A stretch of 64,000 nt of DNA, taken from NCBI RefSeq assembly GCF_900141935.1, contig NZ_FQYX01000013.1:40152-104151 (forward strand), given 5' to 3'. The DNA comes from Arenibacter nanhaiticus. Its GTDB lineage: Bacteria > Bacteroidota > Bacteroidia > Flavobacteriales > Flavobacteriaceae. How positions within the stretch are numbered: the first letter of the stretch is position 1; each line of letters begins with the position of its first letter. The position numbers and the translations under genes were made by a program. Under the pieces are notes generated by a model that saw only the letters and a program-made list of their open reading frames with translations, was not told the origin of the DNA and searched no databases. Positions 4,729 through 63,447 of the stretch are shown here, one piece after another.

Positions 4729-4808
4729 GCGTTAGGGACCGCGGCGGCATCCCCGCAGCGGAGCAAGGGATACAGACAAGGGCCCGCCCGACGAAGGAGG
4801 GAACGCCC
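4729..4808 (+). repeat. dispersed 80-bp structured repeat, copy A
   Basis: Starts GCGTTAGGGACCGCGG and ends GAGGGAACGCCC, with flanking T's on the left and A's on the right. It contains ATCCC...GGGAT arms around a 13-base centre and a GC-rich right half, unlike the AT-rich surroundings. It sits in the 405-base space between the convergent aminotransferase and trkH genes, where I see no ORF. It is nearly identical to copies at 17864, 20430 and 52734 and related to 63359. Confidence 0.9.
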
Positions 4809-4915
4809 AAAATAACATGCCAAAATCTAAGGGTATTTAGAGTCAACTTTTCTTAATACCTATTCTATTTGATTTAGCACACAAAATCCAGCTGTTTCCC
4901 ATAGAAACTCAGTCA

Positions 4916-6406
4916 TTAGCTGGTTTTCCAAAAATATGGTGTACATAAAATAAGGACGGTAAACAGTTCTAATCTTCCCAACAACATTAAAAAACCACAC
5001 CACCATTTACCCAATTCCGGAAGACTATTATAATTGCTTACCGGATTTAGGCTCCCTAGGGCAGGCCCTACATTCCCCAAGGAAGAGGCTGCACCCCCAA
5101 TGGCACTGGTAAAATCGAGTCCTAGAGCACCCAGGCCGAGTGAACCAATTATAAACAACAACATATACAGCACAAAAAATCCGATGATGTTATATACGAT
5201 ATGCTCATCTACGGTCTTATTATTATACCTTACCGGAATAATGGCATTGTTATGAAGGGTACGCTTAAACTCTAACAAGCCATTCCTAATAATCAACAAA
5301 TGCCTCATCACCTTGATTCCCCCTGAAGTAGATCCGGCGGAACCACCTAGAAACATTAACCCAAAAAATAGCACCGTAAGAAAAGGAGCCCATGAGGTAA
5401 AATCGGCCGTCACAAAACCTGTGGTGGTAATTACAGAAACTACCTGAAACAAGGAATGTCTGAAGGCACTTTCTGCCTCTCCAAAGACCATAGGATGAAA
5501 ATCGGACATTGGCACATTGGCCTTTAAATAAACAACCAAGGCCGCGATTAGAGAAAAACTGATTATAAAAATGGAATACATTTTAAATTCTTCATCAAAA
5601 AGAACCTTTTGGATTTTCCCCTTAAAGGCATAATAACTCAATACAAAATTGCTCCCTGCCAAAAACATAAATAAAATAACTATATATTGAATCAAAGGCT
5701 GGTCGTTCCAATAGGCCATACTTAAATTCTTGGTAGAAAATCCGCCTGTAGATAAGGTTGCCAAGGAATGATTTATAGCGTCAAAAAAGGACATTCCCGC
5801 CAATTTCAACAGCAGGGTCTCTGCCACGGTATAGCCAAAATAAATCAGCCACAATCTCTTTGCTGTGTCCGTAATCCTAGGGTGTAGCTTATCGGTACTC
5901 GGACCCGGAGCCTCGGCCGCGAAAAGCTGCATGCCCCCGATTCCCAAAAGGGGCAAAATAGCAATAGCAAGGACTATAATCCCCATCCCCCCTATCCAAT
6001 GGGTCAGACTTCTCCAAAAAAGAATTCCTTCGGGAAGCGCTTCGATATCGTCGACAATACTAGCCCCTGTAGTGGTATACCCTGATATGGTTTCAAAAAA
6101 AGCGTTGGTAACACCTGGAATGGCTCCGGAAAAAAGATAAGGCAACATACCGGAGGCAGACATAACAAGCCACCCAAAAGTAACGATGATATACCCTTCC
6201 CTACGTTTTACCTCCTTCTTATGGGTACGTGTATAGAACATAGAAACGGTTCCTATGAGCATGGTAATAATCCCTGCCAAGGATATATCCAAAGTGACGC
6301 CATCGTCATAAATACCGCTTACTATGGCCGCTATAATCATAAAAAAGCCATTGCAAAGCAACAGCAATCCCATGAGGTGAAATATGATTTTTAAATTTAA
6401 TCGCAT
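4916..6406 (-). CDS. trkH: Trk-type potassium uptake channel subunit TrkH
   Basis: Inner-membrane K+ channel/transporter of the SKT superfamily. The 496 residues show repeated membrane helix-P-loop-helix units, with selectivity-filter-like segments TTGASI (near residue 112), STGGFST (near 220), TTTGFV (near 331) and a fourth near SSLGNVG. The length is normal for TrkH. It lies four bases after the trkA stop, so trkA-trkH is an operon whose products form one complex. It is convergent with the aminotransferase gene. Confidence 0.95.
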   Translation of the reverse strand: MRLNLKIIFHLMGLLLLCNGFFMIIAAIVSGIYDDGVTLDISLAGIITMLIGTVSMFYTRTHKKEVKRREGYIIVTFGWLVMSASGMLPYLFSGAIPGVTNAFFETISGYTTTGASIVDDIEALPEGILFWRSLTHWIGGMGIIVLAIAILPLLGIGGMQLFAAEAPGPSTDKLHPRITDTAKRLWLIYFGYTVAETLLLKLAGMSFFDAINHSLATLSTGGFSTKNLSMAYWNDQPLIQYIVILFMFLAGSNFVLSYYAFKGKIQKVLFDEEFKMYSIFIISFSLIAALVVYLKANVPMSDFHPMVFGEAESAFRHSLFQVVSVITTTGFVTADFTSWAPFLTVLFFGLMFLGGSAGSTSGGIKVMRHLLIIRNGLLEFKRTLHNNAIIPVRYNNKTVDEHIVYNIIGFFVLYMLLFIIGSLGLGALGLDFTSAIGGAASSLGNVGPALGSLNPVSNYNSLPELGKWWCGFLMLLGRLELFTVLILCTPYFWKTS

Positions 6407-6410
6407 GAAC

Positions 6411-7760
6411 CTAGAGAAATAACTTTTCTATTTTTTGAATCGCGCTAGGCAAACAACAGACTACCACTCGGTCTCCCTGAAGAATCTCAAATCCACCTAG
6501 TGCTATGATCCCTTTATTATCACGTATAACGCCACCGATGGTAGCCTCTCTAGGAAACTCTAATTCCCGTATCAATTTCCCGTTGACCCTAGAGGTTGGT
6601 TTTACCACAAATTCCAATATTTCGGCATTTAAATTATTCAACCTGGTCACTGCTACAACTTCTCCCTTACGGATATGCCTAAATATATTATTGGCCGCCA
6701 GCAGCTTTTTATTGAGTAGGGTATCTATTCCGATAGAATGCGAAAGCTGAAAATAATCCATGTTTTCGACCAAGGCTATCGTTTTTTTAACATTCTTTGA
6801 TTTAGCGACCAAACAGGACATGATATTGGTTTCGGAATTTCCCGTCACCGCAACAAAAGCATCCATAGCCTCTAAATTCTCTTCTTCGAGCAATTCTACA
6901 TTTCTACCATCGCCATTAATAATTAAGGCATTGGGAAGCATATCGGCAAGATCGAAAGCTTTTTCTTTATCCTTTTCAATTAGCTTTACATTGAACTTAT
7001 TGACACAGAGATCACGAGCGGTTTTAAAGCCAACCTGACTCCCCCCTAGTATCATTACATTTTTTATTTCTTTACGCTCTGTACCGGTTAGTTTATGAAT
7101 TTCTTCGACACCTTCTTTGGAGATAATAAAATATACCTGATCTTTTTCCTTAAAAACCGTATCGCCTCGAGGCACGGTGGTATATTGAGTACCGCTTCGC
7201 TGAAGCGCTATGGGCATAAAGTGCAGTTCGGGAAAAATTTTCGCAGCATCTTTCACCATCTTCCCTACAAAGGGTGCCGTTTTTGGCATGCACACCCCCA
7301 CCATAATTAAGGCACCATCTTCAAATTCGTAGGTATTATTAAAACCCGATTGATTTAATAAAAGTTGTATCTCCGTAGCAGCCAATGCCTCTGGCGAAAT
7401 TAACTCATCTATTCCAAGATCGGAAAATTTAAGATCTTCTTTATTATGAATAAATTCTGCATTAGAAATCCTAGCAATGGTTCTTTTACTCCCCAATTGC
7501 TTTGCCAACATACACAAGGTAAGGTTAGTCGTCTCCGAAGACGTTACCGCAATAACTAAATCCGATTTTCCCACTTGGGCATCTTTTAACACTGCAATAG
7601 AAGTAGCATCTCCTCTGAGCACCCGTATATCCAAATGGCTATCGGCATAAGACAAGCTGTCTTTATTGCTGTCTATTAAAGTAATATCCTGGGATTCGTA
7701 AGAGAGCAATTTTGCCAAATGAAATCCTACTTCACCAGCCCCCGCAATAATAATTTTCAT
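6411..7760 (-). CDS. trkA: Trk potassium uptake regulatory subunit TrkA
   Basis: Peripheral cytoplasmic NAD(H)/nucleotide-binding subunit that gates TrkH. The 449 residues form two tandem RCK units: Rossmann motif GAGEVGFHLAKLL at residues 7-19 with DSNKDSL after strand 2, and a second one, GGSQVGFKTARDL, near residue 240. Each is followed by a TrkA-C domain (about 140-220 and 370-449). First gene of the trkA-trkH operon. Confidence 0.95.
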   Translation of the reverse strand: MKIIIAGAGEVGFHLAKLLSYESQDITLIDSNKDSLSYADSHLDIRVLRGDATSIAVLKDAQVGKSDLVIAVTSSETTNLTLCMLAKQLGSKRTIARISNAEFIHNKEDLKFSDLGIDELISPEALAATEIQLLLNQSGFNNTYEFEDGALIMVGVCMPKTAPFVGKMVKDAAKIFPELHFMPIALQRSGTQYTTVPRGDTVFKEKDQVYFIISKEGVEEIHKLTGTERKEIKNVMILGGSQVGFKTARDLCVNKFNVKLIEKDKEKAFDLADMLPNALIINGDGRNVELLEEENLEAMDAFVAVTGNSETNIMSCLVAKSKNVKKTIALVENMDYFQLSHSIGIDTLLNKKLLAANNIFRHIRKGEVVAVTRLNNLNAEILEFVVKPTSRVNGKLIRELEFPREATIGGVIRDNKGIIALGGFEILQGDRVVVCCLPSAIQKIEKLFL

Positions 7761-8152
7761 CTATTGAGTAAAAAGTTTTTCATAACATGAACCTACAATA
7801 TTAACCTGGAAATAAAAATAATTAAATTAACTATTTCGATTAATAGACTTGAAGGAAAAGCATGGCAAAACTACATAATTTTATTGTGTTGCCACTGTTT
7901 ATACCCGAGAGAAACTCTCCCATCCCACCTAAAGACAAAGATTTACAGGATATCCCTTCCCTTTTTATGGGTATTTTAAAGAAATAATAGCTAATTTATA
8001 TATCCTATGGAATCAAAACCCTTGGCATTAATTTTTTCAAGAAACACTGTACCTAAACCATTGGACATAAATTTTCGCTCCAGTCTAATATCTAAACCAA
8101 AGTTGCACCATAACTTTATGGTTAAATAGTATCTTTACCAAAAATTTTAAAA
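7761..8152. other. intergenic region between trkA and menG (divergent)
   Basis: Holds the outward-facing promoters of trkA and menG. A small inverted repeat GAGAG/CTCTC lies near 7907-7919. A 41-codon frame at 7862-7987 has no supporting feature and is not called. No RNA gene is recognised. Confidence 0.4.
8103..8137 (+). promoter_or_regulatory. candidate promoter of menG
   Basis: TTG at 8103-8105 and TATCTTTA at 8130-8137, 24 bases apart. This approximates the flavobacterial TTG-N17-23-TAnnTTTG promoter, but with slightly long spacing and A for G at the last base. It is 15 bases before the menG start. Confidence 0.4.
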
Positions 8153-8881
8153 ATGAACAAAAAAGTCACTCCATACAGCGATTCTAAACTTGGCAAAAAG
8201 GAGCAAGTAACACAAATGTTCGATAATATTTCTGGCGATTACGACGGACTTAATAGGGTTATTTCTTTTGGCATTGATATAAAATGGAGAAAACGGGTTG
8301 TAGCTATTATTGGCAAAACGAATCCCAAAAACATTTTAGATATTGCTACAGGCACGGGTGACCTTGCCATAAACATGGTTAAAACAGGCGCTAAAGAAAT
8401 CATTGGCTTAGATATTTCTCCTGGCATGTTGGCTATAGGAAAGAAAAAAATAGCGGATAAAAATCTAGATAAGACCATTAAAATGGTGGTCGGAGACAGT
8501 GAAAAATTACCGTTCCAAGACAACACTTTCGATGCCGTTACCGTAGCTTTTGGTGTGCGTAATTTTGAAAATCTTGAAGTAGGGTTATCAGAAATATATA
8601 GAGTTCTTAAGCCCACGGGCACATTTGTGGTATTAGAAACTTCAGTACCAACAAAAACACCTTACAGACAGGGTTACAAAATATACACCAAATATATTTT
8701 ACCTACCATCGGACGTTTATTTTCCAAAGATCGTAGCGCTTATTCTTATCTTTCGGAATCGGCTGCTTCTTTTCCACACGGACAGGCCTTCAACAATATT
8801 TTACAAAAAACAGGGTTTATAAAGGTAGAGAACAAACCTCAAACCATGGGTGTTGCCACTATTTACGTTGCTACAAAATAA
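8153..8881 (+). CDS. menG: demethylmenaquinone methyltransferase (UbiE/MenG)
   Basis: SAM-dependent C-methyltransferase for the last step of menaquinone synthesis. In Bacteroidota, where menaquinone is the usual quinone, this is its likely only role. The 242 residues contain the family segments [17 protein letters not shown] (about 19-35), SAM motif [11 protein letters not shown] (about 63-72), LDISPGML, and [14 protein letters not shown] (about 127-140). porT starts three bases after the stop, so the two are probably co-transcribed. Confidence 0.95.
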
Positions 8882-8884
8882 CAG

Positions 8885-9586
8885 ATGAAACAGATTCTTA
8901 TCCTTTTTACCGTTTTTGTGTTCCTAGGCCCTACCCTTAGGGCCCAGTTTAACGAAAAGCCTGTATTAAACCTCCAAAACGAGGATAAGGCTCTCTTAAA
9001 TTGGGGCTATTTCCTAGGTTTTAACCAATACGATTTTAAGTTTAACTACAAAGAAGACACAGAAGATATTTTGGTTCGCAAATCTATAGGCTTCAACGTG
9101 GGGCTTATTGGGGAATTGCGACTCAATAAGTTTATGGATCTACGTTTTGAACCCGGTCTCCATTACAATCAGCGCGATTTAGGATCTCGTAAGTTTTTCG
9201 AAGGCGAAGAAGACGAAGCTGTTCGAGAGATAAAATCGACTTACATCAATTTCCCCCTATTATTAAAGGTAAGTACCAAAAGGTTGGGCAACTTTAAACC
9301 TTTTATCATTGGGGGAGCATCGACCTCTTTAAACCTTGGGAGCAACGAAAAAAGCGTAGAAGATAACGCAAGTGGTACCTTCCGCATGAAAAAGAACACC
9401 CACTACTACGAACTGGGCTTTGGCATCGATTTTTATTTGGAATACTTTAAATTTAGTCCGTCTATCCGGGGCGTTTTTGCCATCAACGACGAATTAATTC
9501 GCGACAAGGACCCTAATAGTAGGTGGACAGGAAATATAGACACCATGAAAACCAGAGGGCTTTTTGTGAATTTTACTTTTGAATAA
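8885..9586 (+). CDS. porT: PorT/SprT-like outer membrane protein of type IX secretion
   Basis: The 233-residue product has a Sec signal peptide (hydrophobic LILFTVFVFLGPTLRA, cleavage before QFNEK) and alternating beta strands typical of a small outer-membrane barrel (PorT family, outer membrane protein beta-barrel). PorT is required for type IX secretion and gliding in Bacteroidota. Its position directly behind menG supports the assignment, because I recall the same ubiE-porT linkage in other members of the phylum. The exact role of PorT in the secretion machine is not settled. No PUL enzyme in this window has an evident type IX C-terminal signal. Confidence 0.78.
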   Translation: MKQILILFTVFVFLGPTLRAQFNEKPVLNLQNEDKALLNWGYFLGFNQYDFKFNYKEDTEDILVRKSIGFNVGLIGELRLNKFMDLRFEPGLHYNQRDLGSRKFFEGEEDEAVREIKSTYINFPLLLKVSTKRLGNFKPFIIGGASTSLNLGSNEKSVEDNASGTFRMKKNTHYYELGFGIDFYLEYFKFSPSIRGVFAINDELIRDKDPNSRWTGNIDTMKTRGLFVNFTFE

Positions 9587-9592
9587 ACCTAC

Positions 9593-10315
9593 TTAGCTTC
9601 TTCTAATTTCGTTTAATAGAATTGCGGTAGCCGTAGCCACATTAAGGCTTTCTGTGGCAGTGGTACCAAACTGGGGAATACTAATTTTTTTGGCAACCAA
9701 GGCTTCTATACTTTTAGAAACCCCATTGGCCTCGTTCCCCATAACCAAAATTCCGGTTTCTGGCATTTTTTCGCCGTAGACCAACTTTCCTTCCATAAAA
9801 GCTCCGTACACAGGAACCTTTACCTCTTGAAGAACGCTGTGCAAATTAGCATACACGATATTCACACGGGTAATAGAGCCCATGGTTGCCTGTAGCGTTT
9901 TAGGATTATAGCAATCGACCGTTGCCGAAGAACAAAGCAGCGTTGGAATGCCGAACCAATCGCAAAGACGGATGATGGTCCCTAAATTTCCAGGGTCTCT
10001 AACATCGTCCAGTGCCACCACCCAATTAGAAAAATCTATTTCTTTCTCTTCGGGCATGTGAAAAACCCCTAAAACCTTATTAGGAGTGGTTAAACTGCTC
10101 ATTTTTTTCAGATCGCCTTCGGCAACCAATGTCATTCCTTCCGTATTTGGAGGCAATACAGAAGGATCGCTCACATAAACTTGGTAGTTTTTTAAGCGAG
10201 AAGCTAATAGCTCTTTTACGGTTTTTACCCCTTCAACCACAAACAACTTATGTAGTGCTCGGTATTTTTTTTGCTGTAAGCTTTTTATAAATTTTATTTG
10301 GCTTTTACCAACCAT
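9593..10315 (-). CDS. TrmH/SpoU family RNA 2'-O-methyltransferase
   Basis: Cytoplasmic SPOUT-fold RNA ribose methyltransferase. The 240 residues comprise an N-terminal SpoU substrate-binding domain (about 1-85) and the knotted catalytic domain with motif 1 DDVRDPGNLGTIIR (about 109-122), motif 2 LVMGNEANGVS (near 190) and motif 3 IPQFGTTATESLNVATATAI (near 212-231). The closest relatives modify 23S rRNA (RlmB/AviRb/YsgA group), but the target base cannot be read from sequence. Its start faces tamL and lies about 40 bases from it. Confidence 0.9.
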   Translation of the reverse strand: MVGKSQIKFIKSLQQKKYRALHKLFVVEGVKTVKELLASRLKNYQVYVSDPSVLPPNTEGMTLVAEGDLKKMSSLTTPNKVLGVFHMPEEKEIDFSNWVVALDDVRDPGNLGTIIRLCDWFGIPTLLCSSATVDCYNPKTLQATMGSITRVNIVYANLHSVLQEVKVPVYGAFMEGKLVYGEKMPETGILVMGNEANGVSKSIEALVAKKISIPQFGTTATESLNVATATAILLNEIRRS

Positions 10316-10357
10316 TCAAATAACGTATTTTTGACTCCTATGAGGACCCGATTGTCT

Positions 10358-12928: not shown

Positions 12929-12943
12929 AGCTAATTATTTTAT

Positions 12944-14985: not shown

Positions 14986-14993
14986 TATATTTG
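14986..14993 (+). promoter_or_regulatory. -7 box of rpsO
   Basis: TATATTTG, an exact TAnnTTTG match, 54 bases before the rpsO start, leaving room for a leader of about 50 bases. Confidence 0.55.
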
Positions 14994-15047
14994 CGCCCTT
15001 GACCGAATTTCGGTCATGTACATAAAAATCATTAAAACAATATTGGA

Positions 15048-15317
15048 ATGTATTTAACTAAAGAAGTAAAAGCTGAGATTTTTCAGAAGCATGGTGGTGA
15101 AGCAGTAAACACAGGTTCTGCCGAAGGACAAATTGCTTTGTTCACTTACAGAATCAACCACTTAACAGAGCACTTAAAAAAGAATCGCAAAGATTTTAAC
15201 ACTGAGCGTTCTCTAGTAAAATTGGTAGGTAAGAGAAGATCTCTTCTAGATTATTTAATTAAGAAAGATATTACTAGATATCGTGCTATAATTAAAGAAT
15301 TAGGAATTAGAAAATAA
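15048..15317 (+). CDS. rpsO: 30S ribosomal protein S15
   Basis: Primary 16S rRNA-binding protein of the small subunit. The 89 residues show the S15 signature around LTEHLKKNRKDFNTERSLV (residues 37-55) and GKRRSLLDYL. It stands alone with its own -7 box and terminator, followed after about 230 bases by pnp. This is the widely kept rpsO-pnp neighbourhood, here separated by a terminator. Confidence 0.98.
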   Translation: MYLTKEVKAEIFQKHGGEAVNTGSAEGQIALFTYRINHLTEHLKKNRKDFNTERSLVKLVGKRRSLLDYLIKKDITRYRAIIKELGIRK

Positions 15318-15322
15318 TTCAC

Positions 15323-17823: not shown

Positions 17824-17863
17824 TTACCCCCTACTTCAAAATTTACAATGGCCATATTGCTTT

Positions 17864-17943
17864 GGGCGTTCCCTCCTTCGTCGGGCGGGCCCTTGGCTAT
17901 ATCCCTTGCTACGCTGCGGGGATGCCGCCGCGGTCCCTAACGC
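17864..17943 (-). repeat. dispersed 80-bp structured repeat, copy B
   Basis: Read on the minus strand it begins GCGTTAGGGACCGCGG and ends GAGGGAACGCCC. It differs from copy A at only a few positions, mainly in the central loop and just right of it. It sits in the 452-base pnp-rpoD gap. The remaining 270 bases before rpoD hold no ORF and presumably its promoter and leader. Confidence 0.9.
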
Positions 17944-20429: not shown

Positions 20430-20509
20430 GCGTTAGGGACCGAGGCGGCATCCCCGCAGCGTAGCAAGGGATACAGCCAAGGGCCCGCCCGACGAAGGAG
20501 GGAACGCCC
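20430..20509 (+). repeat. dispersed 80-bp structured repeat, copy C
   Basis: Begins GCGTTAGGGACCGAGG and ends GAGGGAACGCCC. It differs from copy A by one base in the left arm, one in the central loop and one near position 47. It sits between the FKBP terminator and the radical SAM promoter. Confidence 0.9.
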
Positions 20510-20677
20510 AAATAAAAATAATAAGACCGTTTATACTTTGTAATACCTTATTTGGACTCCAGCTATTAAGGTGCTAGGGAAAATAATGGAGGGGAAATTA
20601 ATATACATTGCCTTGGCCTTCCGAACCTCAAGGCTAAACCTCTTGTTAAAAAGCCTATTATTCCTTAAAATTTCATT

Positions 20678-52733: not shown

Positions 52734-52813
52734 GCGTTAGGGACCGCGGCGGCATCCCCGCAGCAAAGCAAGGGATATAGACAAGGGCCCGCCCGACGAA
52801 GGAGGGAACGCCC
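52734..52813 (+). repeat. dispersed 80-bp structured repeat, copy D
   Basis: Begins GCGTTAGGGACCGCGG and ends GAGGGAACGCCC. Its central loop reads GCAAAGCAA where copy A has GCGGAGCAA. It sits in the 658-base gap between the susC1 promoter and the HTCS stop. The stretches 52516-52733 and 52814-53059 hold nothing else that I can recognise. Confidence 0.9.
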
Positions 52814-53059
52814 AAAATACAACAACATGAACTATTGATTTTTAAAGGCGAACCGACTTCAACACGAACAATTGGAAAATAAAACATCCTACCTATTAGT
52901 GTTTTAAAAAAAGAGGACAGTCCAAATCATATTTAGAAAGCCCTATTCCTTTTTTATATAAAAATTTCAATATTTTCTAACTTAAAAAAGGACATCGTTC
53001 TTTTCGCTCCTTTCTTCAAGATTACCTAGACAATAATTGCCTCCGAAAGATGGAACCTA

Positions 53060-56000: not shown

Positions 56001-57223
56001 TTATGCTTATAATAGGTAAAAAGTCCGGTTTCCCTATTCATAAAATTAATTCCCCCTCCTTCGGTAGCGATCCACAGATTTTGTTCCTCATCTTCAATGA
56101 TAGAGCTGGTTACCTTATAATTAAGCTTTGTTCTATTAGCTCCAGAAGAGATGCCCTTAAAAAGGTCATAGCTCCGATCATAATAATTTATCCCTCCGGC
56201 ATAGGTCCCTATCCAAAGATCTCCTTTCGTGTCCTGTAAAATTTTATAGATAGAATTCTGACTTAAACTTGTGGGATCGTTTTCGTCGTGTACGTAATGA
56301 GAGATTAGGTTTAGGTCCTTATTAATTACATAGAGTCCGTTATAGGTACCCACCCATAAATTCCCCAAATAATCCTGCTCCAAACTTCTAATTTCATCGG
56401 TGATTTGGTTTAATCCGGAAGACGCGATGCGAAATGATTCAAACTTATCGCGTTCTTTATTAAACAGAGAAAGACCATTATTATCTCCCAGCCAAAGATT
56501 TTTGTTTTGATCTTCAAAAAGCACCGGGATATAATTCATGTTTATTTCAGTTTTCTTATCCTTGGGATAATAGTACTTTTTAAAATGGTTTGTTTCCGAA
56601 TTGTAAACATCAATATTATTCAAGTTACATATCCAAAGCGTTCCATCGGTTGTTACTAGTAACGACCTGATTTTAGTAATTGTATTCTCCTTAAAATTGT
56701 TTTTTTCGGTTTGAAAAGAAACAAACTCCCCGCTATTGACATTAAATTTCTCTAGGCCGTAGTTGGTACCCAACCATAAATTCCCGTTCCCATCAGAAAC
56801 AATGTCCCAAATTTCAGTATTGGCAACACTACTTCTATTGGAAGGCAAAGAAATTCTTTCGAACCGGTCCTCCTCTGAAAGATATTTATTTAAACCATAA
56901 TTAGTACCTACCCATAGCGTTCCTTCCTCATCTTGGAATAGGGACCTTATATAACTATTGCTAATACTATATGGATCTACGGAATTATGCCTGTAGGTTT
57001 TAAAAGAATGTCCATCATATTTATTCAGTCCATCCCTAGTGCCAAACCACAAAAACCCCTTATTATCCTGCAAAATCTCCAATACGGAACTTTGCGACAA
57101 GCCTTCGGCAATAGAGAAGTGTTTAAATTTTAATGTTTTTTGTTCTCTGCTCTCAATTTGACCAAAAACTGAGGATATTATTAAATTAAAAAAAAGAAAT
57201 AATAAGTGATTTCTTAACTTCAT
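53060..57223 (-). CDS. hybrid two-component system regulator (HTCS), PUL activator
   Basis: One-protein sensor and transcription factor of 1387 residues in the inner membrane. Order: signal peptide (to about 22); two seven-bladed Reg_prop propellers (about 30-690, repeats like LWVGTNYGLNKY); Y_Y_Y domain (about 715-785); membrane helix (WWAYLIYAILLVAAILAI, about 795-815). The histidine kinase has His854 in NISHDFRTPL and the N, G1 and G2 boxes NLLSNAFKF, EDNGKGIP and GTGIGLALTKS. A receiver has Asp1177 in ISDVMMPVMDG and Lys in ITKPF, and the AraC-type helix-turn-helix domain is about 1285-1380. By family knowledge it binds a lyase-released oligosaccharide in the periplasm and activates susC transcription. 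It lies 57 bases after the LacI gene, same strand. Confidence 0.96.
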   Translation of the reverse strand: MKLRNHLLFLFFNLIISSVFGQIESREQKTLKFKHFSIAEGLSQSSVLEILQDNKGFLWFGTRDGLNKYDGHSFKTYRHNSVDPYSISNSYIRSLFQDEEGTLWVGTNYGLNKYLSEEDRFERISLPSNRSSVANTEIWDIVSDGNGNLWLGTNYGLEKFNVNSGEFVSFQTEKNNFKENTITKIRSLLVTTDGTLWICNLNNIDVYNSETNHFKKYYYPKDKKTEINMNYIPVLFEDQNKNLWLGDNNGLSLFNKERDKFESFRIASSGLNQITDEIRSLEQDYLGNLWVGTYNGLYVINKDLNLISHYVHDENDPTSLSQNSIYKILQDTKGDLWIGTYAGGINYYDRSYDLFKGISSGANRTKLNYKVTSSIIEDEEQNLWIATEGGGINFMNRETGLFTYYKHNEKDPRSLSTDNVKAMIQTRSGNFWIGTHDGGLNFLDPKKKPFNFKKYKNIPGDSTSLSNNRVISLFEDHKNNIWIGTSGGGLNVFDNQKKSFHRIKDSDDVLGTIIYTIAKTSDKDVLLVGGSNGLAKINLLSQTIVPVIYKKDEQDAYNISAVLSVYQDPKNNIWIGTEGDGLYYYDAEIKRSVKYGRTSGLPNEVVYGILPDDLNNLWVSTNNGLSRLNLASFQFKNFDVSDGLLGNEFNYGSYTKLANEDLVFGGTNGLNYFNPDDLVENAFIPPVKITAMHVNNKPFVDGDFSRESIKLKYNQNDFNFNFVALSYSQPSKNQYAYKLEGFDEEWIYIGNNRSATYTNLDHGDYVFKVKASNSDGLWNEKGTSIIIKILPAPWETWWAYLIYAILLVAAILAIRRYSLIRMHEKNELKQERLEKERIEEINQMKLRLFTNISHDFRTPLTLIIGPLERMLSNKSGDSFVQRQHEIMHRNASVLLQLINQLLDFRKSDSGKLQLQASKENIVPFIENIKLSFEELARIREIEYSFEPFSDTIELWFDKINLKKIIFNLLSNAFKFTPDKGKITITLSLVTKRKRKGTPTEFLKLVVEDNGKGIPKKNQKFIFDRFFQLGQDENTRSGTGIGLALTKSLVELHQGTIKAKSKVGQGTAFVVLLPMGKDHLNEDQIISNTEEELGSSSQYFNKPSFLVNELIEEEIKEEEASTTVDTVSATILLVEDNMEVRAFIKTIFESNYNILEAENGASAVEIANNQKVDLIISDVMMPVMDGVELCNRIKSNITTSHIPVLLLTAKTSEEAQKTGFTTGADAYITKPFDANLLELRVNNILNSRKFLIDKFKKDIILEPKELTATSPDELFLQKAIKLVEENISNQEFTINDFIMEMNMSRSALYRKLKALTNQSITEFIRTVKLKRAGQLILQSQLNISEIAFDLGFNDLKHFRKSFQKVFNELPSEYRLNHSERKTEKSHIS

Positions 57224-57280
57224 TTGGTTGGTATTTTAAATGCAAAAAATGTAATAATTATTGCTTGCACTAAAGCTACT

Positions 57281-58300
57281 TTATTTGATTGACGATCTTC
57301 GTTCTATCAAACTTGGCTTTAATACAATGGTCTCCTTCATAATCTCTTTAGCCTTATTTTCTATTTGGGAAACCAACAGGTTGGTTGCCAACCTACCCAT
57401 CTCAAAACCAGGCTGATCAATAGTAGTTAAGGATGGTTCCATGATCCCTGAAATAGGTTCGTTACTAAAACCTACGATCGCAATATCATGGGGAATTTTA
57501 ATTCCTTTCTCCTTAAAATATTGCATCGCTCCAATCGCGGCAACGTCATTGGCCGAAAATAAGCCGTCGACCTTGGTGTTAAGAGCAAGAATAGATTTCG
57601 CACTTTCAGCACCATCCTTCTCCATCAATCTAGAACTAAACACCATTTCTTCTTTAAAGGGGATATGATATTTCTCTAAGGCTTTTTGATATCCCTTAAA
57701 TCTATTCTTATAAATTTCTACATTCTGAGGCCCGGATAAATGGGCTATATTTTTACATCCTTGCACAATTAGGTGCTCCGTTGCCTCAAATCCAGCTCGG
57801 AAATCATCGATCAATACCGTGTTATAACCGGGAATATCACAATGTCTATCAAAAAACACCAAAGGCACCCCCCTATTTTTTAATCCTTGAAAATGGTCGT
57901 AATTTTCTGTTTCCATCGATATAGAAACCATAACGCCATCTACTCGGTTGGCCAAAAGAGTGTTGACTAAATTTTGTTCGCGTTCTAACTGCTCCAAGGA
58001 TTGACAAATAAAGACATGATATCCGGCCTCATAGGCAGTTTCCTCTATTCCTGCAATCGCGGAAGAAAAGAAATGACGCGAAATCCTAGGAACTATTATA
58101 CCGATAGTATGCGTTCTACTGGTACGTAAACTAGATGCCAAAAGATTTCTCTGGTACCCCATTTCATTAGCAGCAGCAATAATTTTGTCCTTGGTCTTCT
58201 GCGTAACCCTTGGACTATTGTTTAATGCCCTAGATACCGTAGAACTATTAATATTTAGTTTTTTGGCGATATCATGTATCGTTATTTTATTGTTTTCCAT
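57281..58300 (-). CDS. LacI-family transcriptional regulator
   Basis: The 339 residues have an N-terminal helix-turn-helix (TIHDIAKKLNINSSTVSRAL, residues 7-26) with hinge helix (NLLASSLRTSRT, about 52-63). The periplasmic-binding-like effector domain has GIIVPRISRHFF near 68 and ends with the typical TTIDQPGFEMGRLATNLL segment. It is divergent from kduI, with a perfect palindrome centred on AATCGATT between them. The simplest reading is a repressor of kduI-kduD-DUF4861 responding to a uronate catabolite. It is probably co-transcribed with the HTCS gene. Confidence 0.95.
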   Translation of the reverse strand: MENNKITIHDIAKKLNINSSTVSRALNNSPRVTQKTKDKIIAAANEMGYQRNLLASSLRTSRTHTIGIIVPRISRHFFSSAIAGIEETAYEAGYHVFICQSLEQLEREQNLVNTLLANRVDGVMVSISMETENYDHFQGLKNRGVPLVFFDRHCDIPGYNTVLIDDFRAGFEATEHLIVQGCKNIAHLSGPQNVEIYKNRFKGYQKALEKYHIPFKEEMVFSSRLMEKDGAESAKSILALNTKVDGLFSANDVAAIGAMQYFKEKGIKIPHDIAIVGFSNEPISGIMEPSLTTIDQPGFEMGRLATNLLVSQIENKAKEIMKETIVLKPSLIERRSSIK

Positions 58301-58632
58301 TGTTTAACGCTATTATAAAAAGCTTCCCTTTGCATGAATCAAACTTCTTAAAAGAAGGTGTTCTACAAATATATATATACTGTCCTGATAATTTCTTTAA
58401 CCACAGTAGTAAGGGTCGTATACTATCAGATCTTTCCTTCTTTTTCACCTCCTCATCCTCACCTAAAAGCAGACCAATGGCAGACTTGATTTTTAGAATA
58501 TACAAAGAGATTCTTTACGGCTTGTATTTCCCTATGCCCCTAGGAGATAGAATCATTTACCATCCCTTAATGTATTTGGTATGATCCTCTTTTTTGTCTT
58601 TAAATAGCCCCATAATCTTCTAACAAATATAC
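58301..58632. other. intergenic region between lacI-type gene and operator
   Basis: A 94-codon frame on the plus strand (58300-58584) overlaps the repressor start and has no protein-like features, so it is not called. The region should hold the promoter of the lacI-HTCS unit near 58301-58370. No other structure is evident. Confidence 0.4.
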
Positions 58633-58668
58633 AATTATCAAAATACAATCGATTGTATTTTGATAATT
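58633..58668. promoter_or_regulatory. perfect 36-bp palindrome, putative LacI-family operator
   Basis: Each 18-base half is the exact reverse complement of the other; the core is ATACAATCGATTGTAT with the central CG typical of LacI-family operators. The right half contains the TTG of the kduI promoter, so bound repressor would block RNA polymerase. Confidence 0.8.
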
Positions 58669-58681
58669 ATTATTACATTTA
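58653..58681 (+). promoter_or_regulatory. promoter of kduI-kduD-DUF4861
   Basis: TTG at 58653-58655, an 18-base spacer, and TACATTTA at 58674-58681. This fits the flavobacterial TTG-N17-23-TAnnTTTG rule except for the last base. The implied start near 58688 leaves a leader of about 60 bases before the kduI ATG at 58750. Confidence 0.65.
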
Positions 58682-58749
58682 CATCAAATGAAAAGGAAAA
58701 ACCTGTTCTAAGACACCTCTTAAAAATCAATAATCAAACATATATAATC

Positions 58750-59592
58750 ATGAAAAATCAATTCCAAGTAAGATATGCCTGCTCTCCTAGAGAGACAAAA
58801 GAACTAACCACAGAAGGGTTACGAAAGGAATTTTTAATTCAAAATTTAATGGAGGCCGATACCGTAAATTTAGTTTACACCCATTTTGACAGATATATAG
58901 TAGGCGGTGCGGTCCCGGTTACGACCTCCCTAAAATTAACCACCATAGCCCCATTAAAATCCGATTATTTTTTAGAGAGAAGAGAGCTCGGTATTATCAA
59001 TGTTGGCGGTGCCGGCAGTGTTACGGTAAATGGCGAAAAGTATCCATTGGCCTATAAGGAAGCCCTTTATATAGGCAGGGAGAACAAAGATGTGGTATTC
59101 TCTAGCGACAATGCAAAAACCCCGGCCATGTTTTATTTAAATTCTACACCGGCACACAAGGTACTGCCTACCAAAAAAATCAGTCAGGGCGATGCGGAGG
59201 TAGTAGAACTCGGTGCTATGGAAACTGCCAACGCCCGAACCATTAGGAAATTAATTGTGAACAGCGTGGTAGAAACCTGCCAAGTACAAATGGGAATGAC
59301 CGAATTAAAAACCGGCAGTGTTTGGAACACTATGCCTGCCCATGTTCACGACAGAAGGATGGAAGTTTACTTTTACTTTGAAATCCCCCAAGATCAGGCC
59401 GTTTGTCATTTTATGGGACAACCACAAGAGACCAGACATATATGGATGGGCAATAATGAAGCTGTAATCTCACCGCCATGGTCTATTCATTCGGGTTCAG
59501 GAACCAGCAACTATACGTTTATCTGGGGAATGGCCGGAGAAAACTTAGACTATAGCGATATGGACCATTGCAAAATAACCGATTTAAAATAA
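58750..59592 (+). CDS. kduI: 5-dehydro-4-deoxy-D-glucuronate isomerase KduI
   Basis: Isomerises 4-deoxy-5-keto-uronate (from GH88 cleavage) to 2,5-diketo-3-deoxygluconate in the cytoplasm. From MKNQFQVRYACSPRE it has 280 residues, the family length. The zinc ligands are all present: His198, His200 and Glu205 in PAHVHDRRMEVY, and His247 in PPWSIHSGSG. The frame is open from an ATG at 58660, but that lies inside the operator and upstream of the predicted transcription start, so 58750 is chosen. First gene of the plus-strand catabolic operon. Confidence 0.97.
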   Translation: MKNQFQVRYACSPRETKELTTEGLRKEFLIQNLMEADTVNLVYTHFDRYIVGGAVPVTTSLKLTTIAPLKSDYFLERRELGIINVGGAGSVTVNGEKYPLAYKEALYIGRENKDVVFSSDNAKTPAMFYLNSTPAHKVLPTKKISQGDAEVVELGAMETANARTIRKLIVNSVVETCQVQMGMTELKTGSVWNTMPAHVHDRRMEVYFYFEIPQDQAVCHFMGQPQETRHIWMGNNEAVISPPWSIHSGSGTSNYTFIWGMAGENLDYSDMDHCKITDLK

Positions 59593-59610
59593 CCTTTTAA
59601 CCCCATCACG

Positions 59611-60405
59611 ATGTCTACAAAATTATTTGATTTATCAGGAAAAACTGCCCTTATTACCGGTGCCACCCATGGCCTAGGTATGGCTATGGCCATAGGGCTG
59701 GGCAAAGCCGGCGCTACCTTAATTATCAACGGTGCTTCTTCCCAAAAAAAATTAAACAATGCCCTGGCAGAATACAAGGCTTTGGGATTAAAGGCACATG
59801 CTTACCTTTTTGATGTAACCGACGAAAAGCAAGTCATAGAAAATATCGCTAAAATTGAAAAGGAGGTCGGCCAAATCGATATTTTAGTAAATAATGCCGG
59901 TATTATAAAAAGAACTCCTTTGGAAGATATGGAGGTTGTCGATTTTGAACAAGTGATCAAGGTCGATTTAGTGAGTCCTTTCATTGTTTCCAAGCATGTT
60001 GTCAAGGGTATGATCGCCAGAAAAGAGGGCAAAATTATTAACATCTGCTCTATGATGACCGAATTAGGCCGTAACACGGTTGGCGCTTATGCTGCTGCCA
60101 AAGGCGGCCTAAAAATGTTGACCAAAAACATGGCCACCGAATGGGCCAAGCACAATATCCAGGTCAACGGTATTGGTCCAGGCTACTTTGCTACCAGCCA
60201 AACAGCTCCCATACGTGTCGACGGGCACCCTTTTAATGATTTTATAGTGGGCAGGACGCCTGCCGGACGCTGGGGAGATCCCGACGATTTACAGGGAGCA
60301 GCCATTTTCTTAAGCGCTAAGGCCAGCAACTTTGTCAACGGACAAATCATTTATGTGGACGGCGGAATTTTGGCCACTATAGGAAAACCATCCAACGAGT
60401 CTTAA
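59611..60405 (+). CDS. kduD: 2-dehydro-3-deoxy-D-gluconate 5-dehydrogenase KduD (SDR family)
   Basis: NAD(P)H-dependent reduction of 2,5-diketo-3-deoxygluconate to 2-keto-3-deoxygluconate (KDG). The 264-residue short-chain dehydrogenase has TGATHGLGMAMA (about 14-25), NNAG near 91, and the catalytic Ser147, Tyr160 and Lys164 (YAAAKGG). The VNGIGPGYFAT and NGQIIYVDGGILATI segments are typical of KduD. It lies 18 bases after kduI. The next enzymes, KDG kinase and KDPG aldolase, are not in this window. Confidence 0.95.
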   Translation: MSTKLFDLSGKTALITGATHGLGMAMAIGLGKAGATLIINGASSQKKLNNALAEYKALGLKAHAYLFDVTDEKQVIENIAKIEKEVGQIDILVNNAGIIKRTPLEDMEVVDFEQVIKVDLVSPFIVSKHVVKGMIARKEGKIINICSMMTELGRNTVGAYAAAKGGLKMLTKNMATEWAKHNIQVNGIGPGYFATSQTAPIRVDGHPFNDFIVGRTPAGRWGDPDDLQGAAIFLSAKASNFVNGQIIYVDGGILATIGKPSNES

Positions 60406-60424
60406 CTCCTCTAAACCGGAAACC

Positions 60425-61600
60425 ATGAACACTCTTAAAACCTTAGGGATATTAGCCGGCATTAGCTTGCTGACCGCTTGTTCCGAACCAAAAAAAGAAA
60501 CTACCATTCTTGTTACAAACAAACTCGATAAAGAAAGGACTTTCGAAACAGTAAGCGTAACAAAAGATTTCTTAAAGGTCGATGATTTGACGGGACTGGG
60601 CATTCGCGAATTAAAATCGGGAACACTTCTAGTCACACAAAGCGTAGACAATGATGGGGACGGTATTTTGGACGAACTATTGTTTCAACCTACCATCGCT
60701 CCTAATTCCGAACAGAAATATGAAATAGTCCCTATTGACAAGGAGGCGCAACCAACGGCTCCCGAGTATTGTTATTCGCGTTTTGTACCAGAGCGCACCG
60801 ATGATTATACCTGGGAAAACAACAGGGTTGCCTTTAGGGTCTATGGGCCAACGGCTCAAAAAATGATCGAAGACAAAGTTCCTGGAGGAACCTTATCCAG
60901 CGGGGTCGATGCTTGGTTAAAAAAAGTTGAATACCCCATTATTAACAAATGGTACAAAGAAACCTTGGACGGAACCGGAAATTACCATGAGGACACTGGG
61001 GAAGGCCTCGATGATTTTCACGTAGGGGTCAGTAGAGGTGTCGGCGGAATGGCCGTAAGACAAGATACCGCATACCACCTGTCCAAAAATTACACCACAT
61101 GGCGTACTATTACCACAGGCCCCATCCGTACTAGTTTTTATTTAGAATATGAAAATTGGGATGCAGGAGGAAAACTTATAAAAGAATCGAAAATCATTAG
61201 CTTAGACTTGGGAAACAACTTTTCAAAATTTGACGTTTCCCTAGAAGGAAGCAATGAAGTTTCGGCCGGACTCACATTACATGAAAAAGATGGTGAAGTT
61301 ACTGGAAACCCTGATAAAGGTTGGGTGAGCTATTGGCAGCCACACGGCGATTCCGAACTTGGAACCGCCATAGTTGCCCCTAAAAGTACTTTTATCGGTT
61401 TTGAGAAGTACGATATCGAGACCAAGGATCTAAGCAACGCCTACGCTCATTTAAAGGTAGAAAACAACAAGACGGTGTACTATGCCGGATTTGGATGGAA
61501 AGAAAGCGGACAGTTCAGTTCTCAACAAGAATGGGAAGCTTATTTGGACGAGTTTTCGACAAAGATCAATAATCCTTTAGTCGTTACGCTAACACCCTAA
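60425..61600 (+). CDS. DUF4861 lipoprotein, function unknown
   Basis: A 391-residue lipoprotein (signal LAGISLLTAC, Cys20). It matches what I know as the DUF4861 family, found in uronate-degrading loci of Bacteroidota: DGDGILDELLFQPTIAPNSEQKYEI early, then YCYSRFVPERTDDYTWENNRVAFRVYGP and a conserved centre GEGLDDFHVGVSRGVGGMAV. The beta-rich sequence with conserved His, Asp and Arg suggests a carbohydrate-active fold, but no activity is established to my knowledge. It lies 19 bases after kduD, so it is under the same LacI operator, yet it is exported while KduI and KduD are cytoplasmic. Confidence 0.85.
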   Translation: MNTLKTLGILAGISLLTACSEPKKETTILVTNKLDKERTFETVSVTKDFLKVDDLTGLGIRELKSGTLLVTQSVDNDGDGILDELLFQPTIAPNSEQKYEIVPIDKEAQPTAPEYCYSRFVPERTDDYTWENNRVAFRVYGPTAQKMIEDKVPGGTLSSGVDAWLKKVEYPIINKWYKETLDGTGNYHEDTGEGLDDFHVGVSRGVGGMAVRQDTAYHLSKNYTTWRTITTGPIRTSFYLEYENWDAGGKLIKESKIISLDLGNNFSKFDVSLEGSNEVSAGLTLHEKDGEVTGNPDKGWVSYWQPHGDSELGTAIVAPKSTFIGFEKYDIETKDLSNAYAHLKVENNKTVYYAGFGWKESGQFSSQQEWEAYLDEFSTKINNPLVVTLTP

Positions 61601-61629
61601 GAAACGCCCCTTTTCATATACAAAATACT

Positions 61630-61673
61630 GCAATACCCCAATTCATACACATGTCTTGGGGTATTGCTTTTTT
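61630..61673 (+). terminator. terminator of the kduI operon
   Basis: GCAATACCCCAA / TTGGGGTATTGC 12-bp perfect stem, 14-base loop, six T's; 30 bases after the DUF4861 stop. It marks the right border of the PUL. Confidence 0.9.
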
Positions 61674-61805
61674 AGGAGTATTTTTTTTGTTCTCTCCGTT
61701 TCTCTACAGCCATTTATCGGCTTTAATTTCGTATTTTTAAGCAACCAATATTCCCCTGAAATAGGGAATGAAAACTTCATGTTACCATTTTTAAACTGAT
61801 GAGAT

Positions 61806-63347
61806 ATGACCTTGGAAAAACTAGAAAAGGAACTCGAAAAAATTCATGATCAACTCCTAAAACAAGAACCTGTTGCCAATGCTATTGCTTCTTCCGTGCA
61901 CCCTGAATATAGGGCAAGCGCCAAAAACTTATACCGCTATTTACAATTGCGAAATACAGATATTAGGGCTATCCAAGATGGCTTAGCAGAACTTGGCATA
62001 TCTTCTTTGGGAAGTGGTGCCGGTTACGTCTATGAAAATATTTCCAGTGCCCTTAAGCTTGTAAAAGTACTCAACAACAAAACCTGGGAGAAAAACAAGG
62101 ATATTGAATCCATCGGCTTTACTGGCAGTAAAAAGTTATTGGTTCAACATGCCAATATGCTTTTTAAAACCACTAGTAAAGTTCACGATACGGAAATTAT
62201 GGTGACCATGCCCGATGAAGCCGCAACAGATAAAAAGCTGATCCGAAAACTGCGAAAGGCAGGCATGGGGATCGCCCGTATAAATCTTAGCCATGGCAAG
62301 GAGAAATTGTGGACAAAGATCCTTAAAAAGTCGCACAGTGTTGCCCAAGAAATTCAACAACCCATAAAGATCTATATGGATCTTCCCGGCCCAAAAATTA
62401 GGGTCGCCAATATTTACATCAAAAAAGAGGATGACACCTCGTTTTCGGCCACTCCATTTATACCCATCGCTAAAAAATCCCAATTGTTGTTGGTAAAAAA
62501 CAACTCCCCTTACCTCTCCAAAGGTAAAAAGAAGGAAAAAACCCCTTCGGACATTCCCTTGATTGAAGTAAGTATTCCTCAAATCATAGATAATTTAAAG
62601 GTCGGACAGCAGGTATTTTTTGATGATGGCGCTATAGAAGCCAAGGTGCTCTCCTTAGGCAACAACACGGCCTCTTTGGTCATTAAAAATGCTTATAAGA
62701 AAAAATTACGCACTGAAAAAGGCATTAATCTACCCAATACGCAATTAGATCTGCCATCACTGACCAAGGAAGATCTTTCGCTCTTGCCGTTTATTACCTC
62801 ACATGCCGATCTAATGGGCTATTCTTTTGTCAGCAATGCAGAAGATGTATCTATGCTTTACAAGGAATTACAAACCCTAGGCGATACCGATACGGGGATT
62901 GTTTTTAAGATAGAGAACAAGGAGGCTTTTGAGAATTTACCGGCGATTCTTTTTAGGGCCATGAAAAGACCTAATATTGGCGTGATGATAGCCCGAGGGG
63001 ATTTAGCTGTAGAGATAGGCTTTGAACGTATTTCAGAGGTGCAAAATGAAATCTTATGGCTATGCGAGGCTGCCCAGATACCGGTAGTATGGGCTACCCA
63101 AGTGCTCGATCATATGGCAAAAAAGGGAATGGCGACCAGGGCCGAAATCTCGGATGCCACCATCAGCGCACAGGCAGAATGTGTGATGCTCAACAAAGGT
63201 CCTTATATCGTAGAAGCCACCAAAACCTTAAAGAATGTGCTTTTGCGGATGGAAGCCCATTCACAGAAATCAAAGAATACCCTAAGAGCGCTTAAAGTTG
63301 CGAAAAAAGGACTGAGGAATATCCACAAGGAATTTACTAAAAAATAG
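61806..63347 (+). CDS. pyruvate kinase-like protein with N-terminal extension and no C-terminal domain
   Basis: The 513 residues contain a pyruvate kinase barrel from about 130 to 480: ARINLSHG (about 158-165), IYMDLPGPKIR (about 191-201), VFKIEN with the catalytic Lys (near 365), GVMIARGDLAVEIG (about 390-403) and TRAEISDATIS. Differences from ordinary pyruvate kinase are a helical 120-residue N-terminal extension with a conserved-looking SSLGSGAGYVYENIS segment, MLNKGPYI where MLSGETA is usual, and no allosteric C-terminal domain. It may make pyruvate and ATP from phosphoenolpyruvate or have another role. It is monocistronic, outside the kdu terminator. Confidence 0.8.
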   Translation: MTLEKLEKELEKIHDQLLKQEPVANAIASSVHPEYRASAKNLYRYLQLRNTDIRAIQDGLAELGISSLGSGAGYVYENISSALKLVKVLNNKTWEKNKDIESIGFTGSKKLLVQHANMLFKTTSKVHDTEIMVTMPDEAATDKKLIRKLRKAGMGIARINLSHGKEKLWTKILKKSHSVAQEIQQPIKIYMDLPGPKIRVANIYIKKEDDTSFSATPFIPIAKKSQLLLVKNNSPYLSKGKKKEKTPSDIPLIEVSIPQIIDNLKVGQQVFFDDGAIEAKVLSLGNNTASLVIKNAYKKKLRTEKGINLPNTQLDLPSLTKEDLSLLPFITSHADLMGYSFVSNAEDVSMLYKELQTLGDTDTGIVFKIENKEAFENLPAILFRAMKRPNIGVMIARGDLAVEIGFERISEVQNEILWLCEAAQIPVVWATQVLDHMAKKGMATRAEISDATISAQAECVMLNKGPYIVEATKTLKNVLLRMEAHSQKSKNTLRALKVAKKGLRNIHKEFTKK

Positions 63348-63358
63348 CACGATTATTG

Positions 63359-63447
63359 GGGCGTTCCCCTAGCGGGTCGCGCTTTCCGCTGTATCTTTTT
63401 TAACCGGCCCAGCCGTTAAAAAAGGATGCCGCTGCAATCCCTAACGC
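63359..63447 (-). repeat. diverged copy E of the dispersed repeat (89 bp)
   Basis: On the minus strand it begins GCGTTAGGGATTGCAGCGG and ends GGGGAACGCCC, sharing the ends, GCGGCATCC and GATACAGC with copies A-D. The centre is replaced by a different, longer hairpin (TTTTTTAAC / GTTAAAAAA arms with inner GGC/GCC). It sits between the convergent pyruvate kinase-like and rpsT genes. Confidence 0.8.

Follow-up and report, generated by a model that had tools for sequence, protein, structure and literature searches.

What is the short, near-identical repeat that recurs between genes of Arenibacter nanhaiticus, and what keeps it in place? Five copies lie in a stretch of 64,000 nucleotides (the window), and we weighed the following possibilities: the repeat could be a structured RNA, a repeat moved by a transposase of the RAYT type, inert mobile DNA made uniform by gene conversion, or an element acting as DNA. 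The reading we favour, at a probability just short of even, is the last one, that is, a multi-copy intergenic three-way-junction element, of which one strand is predicted to fold and to be recognised by a putative protein.

Copies in the window and their pairing pattern

All five copies reported by the initial annotation were confirmed in place, the element spanning 83 to 92 nt. Below, G000 is the genome of the window and G012 that of a sister species; P1, P2 and P3 denote the paired segments.

4729..4811, plus strand: type B copy, with P1 at 4729-4733/4802-4806, the P2 arm at 4735-4785 and the P3 hairpin at 4787-4801 (pair counts from the alignment)
4812..4838, plus strand: place of a decayed 3' tail of ~27 nt downstream of the type B copy, a tail that emerges only from the consensus of 59 copies
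17861..17943, minus strand: type B copy between genes matching polyribonucleotide nucleotidyltransferase and a sigma-70 factor; its G012 ortholog has paired changes in P2
20430..20512, plus strand: type B copy downstream of an FKBP-like gene, with an ortholog in G012
52734..52816, plus strand: type B copy flanked on one side by a TonB-dependent receptor gene and on the other by a hybrid two-component gene; its ortholog is 99% identical
63356..63447, minus strand: type A copy, that is, Rfam Flavo-1 (50.8 bits), in the gap that separates the pyruvate kinase gene from that of ribosomal protein S20; its apical arm differs from that of type B

The conserved type B unit is 83 nt long (GCGTTA...GCCCAAA) and the type A copy 92 nt. 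The four type B copies are near-identical and differ in five columns of alignment A3, in agreement with the approximately five differing positions described before; the type A copy has both ends as in type B and a different central arm. None of the five copies overlaps an ORF of at least 80 aa in the window; the description of the copies as intergenic and interrupting no gene holds. The genes between 17943 and 20430 match the sigma-70, SpoU and FKBP families, and the reading of this interval as cargo was therefore dropped.

Covariation supports a three-way junction formed by P1 (GCGTT/AACGC, the inverted repeat already noticed at the ends), the long arm P2 and the short hairpin P3. For a set of 30 copies the covariation score was 0.158 as compared to at most 0.067 for slid partners, and for the 83 type B sequences of alignment A3 (74 of the 94 distinct in-frame copies and nine from relatives) it was 0.058 as compared to at most 0.020. 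In the hemE set the score was 0.057, but a slide of -3 was nearly equal (0.055). The numbers of pairs changed on both sides and of pair types in alignment A1 were as in shuffles (354/500 and 482/500, respectively), and the same was observed for pair types in alignment A3 (74/500). P1 is perfectly paired, in six sequence versions, in all 26 loci of relatives, these loci being found with a P1-containing model, and the pattern of conserved columns is in line with the junction. In the apex of type A, pairing barely exceeded that of shuffles (246 vs. mean 233, maximum 248), and apical-arm covariation was set aside as main evidence, being too weak.

The minimum energy of type B was not below that of shuffles on either strand, whether folded as DNA or as RNA (z from -1.3 to +0.7), while type A as DNA folded somewhat better than shuffles on both strands (z = -1.8; opposite strand, -2.4). 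Energy-based folding was dropped as structural evidence, since type B did no better than shuffles; neither strand was favoured. The proposal of a structured element is upheld by covariation, but not by single-copy folding energies of type B. The further suggestion of selection for structure agrees with the compensatory changes relative to slid controls, with the pairing of P1 and with the conservation of the core over the flanks at orthologous sites (see below).

Copy number, gene context and retention

A genome-wide covariance model search, one of the checks named in the initial annotation, yielded at least 150 matches in the window's genome, and 149 of the listed matches have E <= 3.8e-9, far beyond chance. 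Each of the two sister genomes has at least 150 copies, as opposed to 5-12 in the 11 other congeners compared, which indirectly supports the mobility part of the earlier idea of a non-autonomous mobile element. Of 154 copies, 7 extend for more than 30 nt into an ORF, the ORFs being called mechanically. No type B match was found in plasmids and no type A match in phages, the only two combinations searched, and the reading of a plasmid or phage carrier was dropped on these grounds.

Type B copies are frequent in convergent gaps (25/58 vs. 64 of 325 gaps, p = 3e-4; second genome, 19/53 vs. 57/372, p = 8e-4) and avoid divergent gene pairs (5/58 vs. 84/325, p = 0.004; second genome, 2/53 vs. 88/372, p = 3e-4). 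Type A copies showed no preference for convergent gaps in the two genomes (6/23 and 3/20). Tandem gene gaps contain copies in sense and antisense orientation equally often (20/21 and 23/23 in two genomes that have sites in common and hence are not independent). No leading/lagging preference was seen (type B, 57/52; type A, 18/26; skew is a rough proxy here), unlike the IS200-type ssDNA elements, which do show such a preference. The count of head-to-head A/B pairs was 22/22 (15 in G000, 7 in G012), the G000 part being biased, since one set of G000 stretches was picked around known -/+ pairs (the other stretches mostly tile contigs without that choice), and some of the pairs being mutually orthologous.

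For 40 of 84 G000 copies orthologous flanks are present in the examined part of G012, and all 40 of these sites are occupied, 39 by a copy of the same type and orientation and one by an A/B swap. Over the 39 pairs, identity is 94.2% in the element, 69.4% in the 5' non-ORF flank and 78.9% in the 3' non-ORF flank. The swap site is 63356-63447, with type A in G000 and type B, in the same orientation, in G012, so that the swapped centre described from the window is seen between orthologs as well; a second likely swap is G000 C36:80760 vs. G012 C59:220725. Several P2 changes between orthologs equal variants found in other copies, and the uniformity of the copies could partly reflect gene conversion.

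At positions 4-30 after CCC the 3' tail holds 5.52 bits of information (500 shuffles reached 1.75 at most), and its median match to the consensus is 0.48 vs. 0.96 for the core. A common 3' tail of low-copy copies was set aside as proof of transposition, since several of the compared copies are orthologous or have longer flanks in common. Neither a clean empty site nor a target duplication was found, the single candidate site lying in a replaced region.

All 18 genus genomes searched have a copy in the spacer that separates hemE from its neighbour, and in each of them it lies antisense to the operon. This copy forms a distinct variant, with a long P3 of its own and with paired changes at three positions over the 18 genomes; this copy is ancient, single-locus and vertically inherited.

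Alternative readings of the element

The look-alikes in other flavobacteria mentioned in the initial annotation turned out to be the Flavo-1 RNA motif described by Weinberg et al. 2010 (PMC2864571). The corresponding Rfam model RF01705 has 64 matches in the window's genome, including the type A copy 63356-63447 (50.8 bits, gathering 42), while the four type B copies are unmatched even at E up to 1. The two types can be aligned along a common P2 core. In the Rfam model the first 8 and the last 8 positions are unpaired, so that it has no pairs for P1 or P3, and it misses the GC-rich type B copies. The filing in Rfam implies a structured RNA, either a small RNA or a 3' UTR element, a reading that we consider unlikely. 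It agrees with the type A score and with the presence of covariation, and also with the frequent G-T at one P2 position (GU 68, GC 13 of 83); in the type A apex, vice versa, there are 26 G-T pairs, fewer than in all 500 shuffles (minimum 30; the copies are related). Most P3 loops are of the form GNNA or GNA and not RNA-type GNRA, as judged by the rules for DNA loops: in type B, GNA was found in 91 of 101 (113 matches less 12 out of frame), and in type A (the 51 of 54 distinct apices with a P3 fitting the pattern) the first base was G in 47, the last A in 49 and the third T or C in 49, leaving a GNRA third purine in just 2/51. In the account of RNA mapping in F. psychrophilum, Flavo-1 hits fall together with several 5' transcribed regions, but the hits are sense or antisense alike and many lie outside transcribed regions (PMC9723704). 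The equal sense and antisense numbers in tandem gaps, taken as a proxy for the strand of action, and the invariably antisense hemE copy likewise argue against an RNA; the evidence on the element points to DNA.

The repeat could also be REP-like and have a RAYT (Y1 transposase) as its mover. This RAYT might belong to the Bacteroidetes-specific subclass 2.6, for which atypical flanking structures with genomic copies are described (PMC6006769); we consider this reading slightly less probable than that of an RNA. Such a mover would fit the copy-number jump, the extragenic positions and the paired inverted copies, and in G012 there is an open RAYT-like frame inside one head-to-head A/B pair and a broken RAYT 757 nt from a divergent copy. 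We retain this alternative because 3 of 5 RAYT genes in the examined G012 and G000 stretches have a copy within 1.5 kb, where about one would be expected from a density of some 1 copy per 16 kb. The RAYT association suggested in the initial annotation, nevertheless, did not extend to a set of 45 Y1/RAYT loci, some of them shortened by contig ends and the enclosed frame and broken gene of G012 not being among them: in only two is there a copy at a distance of up to 1.5 kb, and in neither case do copies flank the gene, one adjoining a RAYT with its own palindromes and the other being the vertically inherited hemE copy. Thus, a general RAYT/IS200 link is not supported. G002 and G010, with 11 and 12 copies, have no PF01797 match, a weak point, since PF01797 missed RAYT-like frames in G012 and G013; no common tetranucleotide was seen by eye at the 5' foot in the listed flanks. 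The interiors of the inspected head-to-head pairs varied (genes reading like a toxin-antitoxin pair, a RAYT-like frame, other repeats) with no common gene, and an autonomous transposon with these ends was rejected. No mover, parent transposon or binding protein was found. The least probable of the three alternatives is functionless mobile DNA kept uniform by conversion between copies. The A/B swap, the second likely one and the ortholog P2 changes equal to variants elsewhere are as expected from such exchange, but conversion from ordinary copies would erase the distinct hemE variant of 18 genomes, a site that already points to per-site conservation without same-sequence donors; the conserved columns that respect the junction and the 40/40 orthologous occupancy speak against it too.

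Possible origin, role and meaning for Flavo-1

REP/BIME repeats and RAYT-linked REPtrons, as characterised in PMC6006769 and PMC3733652, resemble the element in high copy number, extragenic location, hairpin structure, inverted pairs and a preference for gene 3' ends, here in type B; the element, however, is a three-way junction of 83-92 nt, and a REP is a single hairpin. Moreover, there is no GTAG tag in the flanks (by eye) and no general RAYT linkage. MITE-like and ERIC/NEMIS-type repeats are also short and non-coding, with complementary ends and copy bursts, whereas the complementary ends of the element measure 5 bp and belong to a folded core that is much better conserved than the tail, and no parent transposon or target duplication was found for it. 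In integron attC sites, too, the structure is conserved and the apical arm hypervariable, and GTT/AAC lie close to the ends. Their core boxes are ordered AAC ... GTT, and attC identity was rejected, since the element has GTT 5' and AAC 3' (consensus of the mixed and type B alignments).

Under the favoured reading of an element acting as DNA, one strand would fold, cruciform extrusion being one possible route, and a putative protein would recognise the fold. The element may have multiplied in the lineage leading to G000 and G012, probably in the form of a non-autonomous mobile unit that exceeded today's core in length and of which the decayed 3' tail would be a remnant; purifying selection would then have kept the core while the tail and flanks decayed. 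By analogy with REP/BIME, the element may function at gene 3' ends as a supercoil or junction-binding site, and exchange between copies can swap a whole arm in place, with A in one species and B in the other.

Flavo-1 has been in the RNA catalogue since 2010 with no function assigned, and it is named where a review deals with the most abundant small RNAs of bacteria (PMC9029176). It is conceivable, though at a probability clearly below even, that Flavo-1 is no RNA family but a new class of chromosomal DNA element: a one-strand three-way junction with exchangeable arms, present in hundreds per genome at gene ends and selected as a chromosomal landing or control site. If Flavo-1 is DNA, the small-RNA count and the search for an RNA function would be misdirected. 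Given two sister genomes with common sites, low-copy relatives and the hemE copy in 18/18 genomes, it can be tested directly what maintains a folded intergenic repeat.

Copies of the element and their spread

All five repeat copies reported in the initial annotation were located again in the window, and none of them overlaps an ORF of at least 80 aa, which bears out their intergenic placement. The four nearly identical copies are 83-mers of one form, here called type B; the remaining copy, 92 nt long, is called type A:

4729-4811, type B, 83 nt
17861-17943, type B, 83 nt
20430-20512, type B, 83 nt
52734-52816, type B, 83 nt
63356-63447, type A, 92 nt

The neighbour genes that were checked belong to ordinary families (polyribonucleotide nucleotidyltransferase, sigma-70 factor, FKBP, TrkH transporter, pyruvate kinase, S20). 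The window also carries an S15-Flavobacteria ribosomal protein leader (14986-15050, 69.8 bits) and, at the contig end (63906-64000), a tRNA-Glu stretch with three more near-identical matches in a row in the corresponding region of the high-copy sister genome G012; a tandem tRNA array probably ended the contig.

The type A copy matches the Rfam family Flavo-1 (RF01705, filed as RNA) above the gathering threshold (50.8 vs 42 bits), whereas type B copies lie outside the reach of that model, none of the four being found in a Flavo-1 search up to an E-value of 1. In its own genome Flavo-1 gives 64 matches at E ≤0.001, 46 of them above the cut-off, and a covariance model built from 30 copies (R1) gives at least 150. 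In the fetched stretches of this genome R1 yields 86 credible matches per 1.10 Mb (87 minus one at E 0.43; some stretches were picked for known copies), and in those of G012, 78 per 1.28 Mb, two of these being halves of one copy at a stretch border. The tiled contigs C36, C54 and C80 contain 22, 16 and 17 copies, approximately one per 14-17 kb. Among the 12 congeners of the first sample, G012 has at least 150 copies, compared with 5 to 12 in each of the other 11. The type B pattern occurs only in Arenibacter records among the matches listed (67 stretches), while Flavo-1 is present in 58 of 196 sampled genomes of the order, with 22 candidates scored per genome. Copy spacing is more even than random on G012 C11 (P 0.0015), G000 C36 (P 0.024; G000 is the own genome) and G012 C59 (P 0.029); on four other contigs of the two genomes evenness is not clear.

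A modelled three-way junction

We model the element as a three-way junction of arms P1, P2 and P3. P1 pairs GCGTT with AACGC. P2, the long arm, starts with outer pairs GGG/CCC, GCT/AGC or GCG/CGC, followed by a block TT/AA, CC/GG, TA/TA or TC/GA flanked by conserved A.G and G.A mismatches, with the apex beyond; P3 is a short hairpin. The genome-wide covariance model and alignment suggested in the initial annotation gave covariation above the slid controls: in 30 mixed copies 98.3% of cells are paired and covariation is 0.158, vs at most 0.067 for slid partners, and the type B set (83 copies) scores 0.058 vs at most 0.020. Other measures do not stand out from shuffles: pairs changed on both sides (354/500 as high) and the number of pair types (482/500) in the mixed alignment, and pair types in the type B alignment (74/500). 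Both kinds of control flatter the structure, as it was derived from related copies.

P1 is invariant within both sets. In the relatives it is fully paired in 26 of the 26 best loci, in six sequence versions (19/26 have the common one), these loci having been retrieved with a model that itself includes P1. RNAalifold on the mixed alignment prefers the GGG/CCC pairing over P1; we nevertheless favour P1 because it varies in relatives. For type B, whether folded as DNA or as RNA, neither strand has a minimum energy better than that of shuffles; type A as DNA folds somewhat better than shuffles (z -2.4 on the opposite strand, -1.8 on the modelled one).

Conservation of sites and genomic setting

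For 40 of 84 copies in G000, alignable orthologous flanks were available in the fetched part of G012. All 40 sites are occupied, 39 with the same type and orientation. The exception is the site of 63356-63447, type A in G000 and type B in G012 in identical orientation; thus the swapped centre noticed initially is seen at an orthologous site. G012 C59:220725 vs G000 C36:80760 is probably another A/B difference of this kind. In the reverse direction, 43 of 76 copies had orthologous flanks, and a copy is present at 41; the remaining two sites show a weak match (44.7 bits) in one case and a replaced region in the other. Hence the comparison of G000 and G012 gave no clean empty site, the sole unoccupied candidate being in that replaced region.

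Over 39 orthologous pairs, the element is 94.2% identical, compared with 69.4% for the 5' and 78.9% for the 3' non-ORF flank; it exceeds the 5' flank in 35/39 pairs and the 3' flank in 32 of the 35 with enough letters. These alignments suggest that the core is kept by selection. Type B copies share a faint 3' tail of about 27 nt (5.52 bits, the largest of 500 shuffles being 1.75), with a median match to consensus of 0.48, vs 0.96 in the core. The most economical interpretation is a formerly longer unit of which only the core has been retained.

The spacer that separates hemE (uroporphyrinogen decarboxylase, PF01208) from an EI24-family gene (PF07264) contains an old single-locus copy, a long-P3 variant found antisense to the operon in 18 of 18 genus genomes. 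In this set 96.9% of cells are paired, vs at most 65.9% when slid, and covariation is 0.057, a slide of -3 scoring 0.055. A covariance-model search of 30 hemE loci from the family, own locus included, detected a copy immediately past hemE in L295, L293 and L289 (E 0.008 for L289), which represent three other genera. L292 (E 0.59) and L290 (by eye only) are weaker cases, and the rest gave no match up to E 5. Among these five loci the P2 arm sequences differ radically between related genera, while P1 is recognisable in all and P3 in four. Judging from these loci, P2 arms behave as if they were exchangeable modules.

With genes called mechanically as ORFs of at least 90 aa, type B is enriched in convergent gaps (25/58 vs 64/325; 19/53 vs 57/372) and depleted in divergent ones (5/58 vs 84/325; 2/53 vs 88/372). 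Type A shows no gap preference (convergent 6 and divergent 4 of 23; 3 and 3 of 20), and the copies show no preference for the leading or lagging strand. In the set of copies compared, close pairs (<1.5 kb) are all head-to-head, one A with one B: 15 in G000, where some stretches were selected around such pairs, and 7 in G012. In several, the ends are conserved and the interior is turned over between the two genomes; one has an open RAYT-like frame inside in G012 and a shorter interior in G000. The B/A pair at L146 9887-11007 (G000 C36:279887-281007), with ends conserved in G012, surrounds two small frames reminiscent of a toxin-antitoxin pair. Other dispersed repeats occupy the pair interiors (L146-L159 and G012 stretches): AT-rich TTGNTNATTG arrays next to the 5' ends, one repeat with AAATGCAAATCGTTGCATTT and another with GGCACGAGCGTGACGCTCGCGCC.

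DNA or RNA, and a possible mover

Three observations point to action as DNA. Sense and antisense copies are balanced in tandem gene gaps (20/21 in G000, 23/23 in G012, many sites being common to both); the hemE copy is antisense throughout the genus; and the P3 loops fit DNA loops better than RNA ones. RNA GNRA loops require a purine at the third position, and GNNA and GNA are very stable DNA loops. Among type B copies in frame, 91 of 101 have a C(GNA)G loop in P3, and in 51 type A loops the first base is G in 47, the last is A in 49 and the third is a purine in only 2. At the type A apex 26 G-T pairs occur, below all 500 shuffles (minimum 30), in copies that are related. A F. psychrophilum transcriptome study describes Flavo-1 matches as sense or antisense indistinctly, many outside transcribed regions (PMC9723704).

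The element could instead be a REP-like repeat moved by a RAYT (Y1 transposase), perhaps of the Bacteroidetes-specific subclass 2.6, which we consider unlikely. The association with such genes, raised in the initial annotation, was not supported as a general rule over 45 Y1/RAYT loci: a copy lies at most 1.5 kb away in only two, in one case next to a RAYT that has palindromes of its own, while in the other it is the hemE copy. Of five RAYT genes measured in the stretches fetched from G012 and G000, three have a copy within that distance (about one expected from density), including one enclosed by an A/B pair. The low-copy congeners G002 and G010 carry copies without a PF01797 match, but RAYT-like frames in other genomes escaped that profile; subclass 2.6 is reportedly flanked by atypical structures (PMC6006769). 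We keep the RAYT mover as a rival because of these nearby copies, profile misses and structures. Searches of plasmids with type B and of phages with type A gave no match.

Two further arrangements were observed. In L093 (G012 C11), at about 1340-1930, a Y1 transposase gene lies between palindromes containing GTCGCCCCGCTGGGGCTAT, unrelated to the element. A rarer subtype with a AGTGAAAAGCCC...GGACTTGCAGCGG arm occurs at L192 9642-9727 (G012 C58:249642) and G000 C30:31871; a broken RAYT gene lies 757 nt from the G012 copy.

The element is real, strongly constrained, multi-copy and structured. The evidence favours its action as DNA; any partner protein, mover or benefit is at most putative. The portions of the open-licence PMC literature on Flavo-1 consulted gave no account of type B, of the three-way junction or of a function as DNA. 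Type B is a new GC-rich subtype of Flavo-1, and the junction is a fuller structure of this family.
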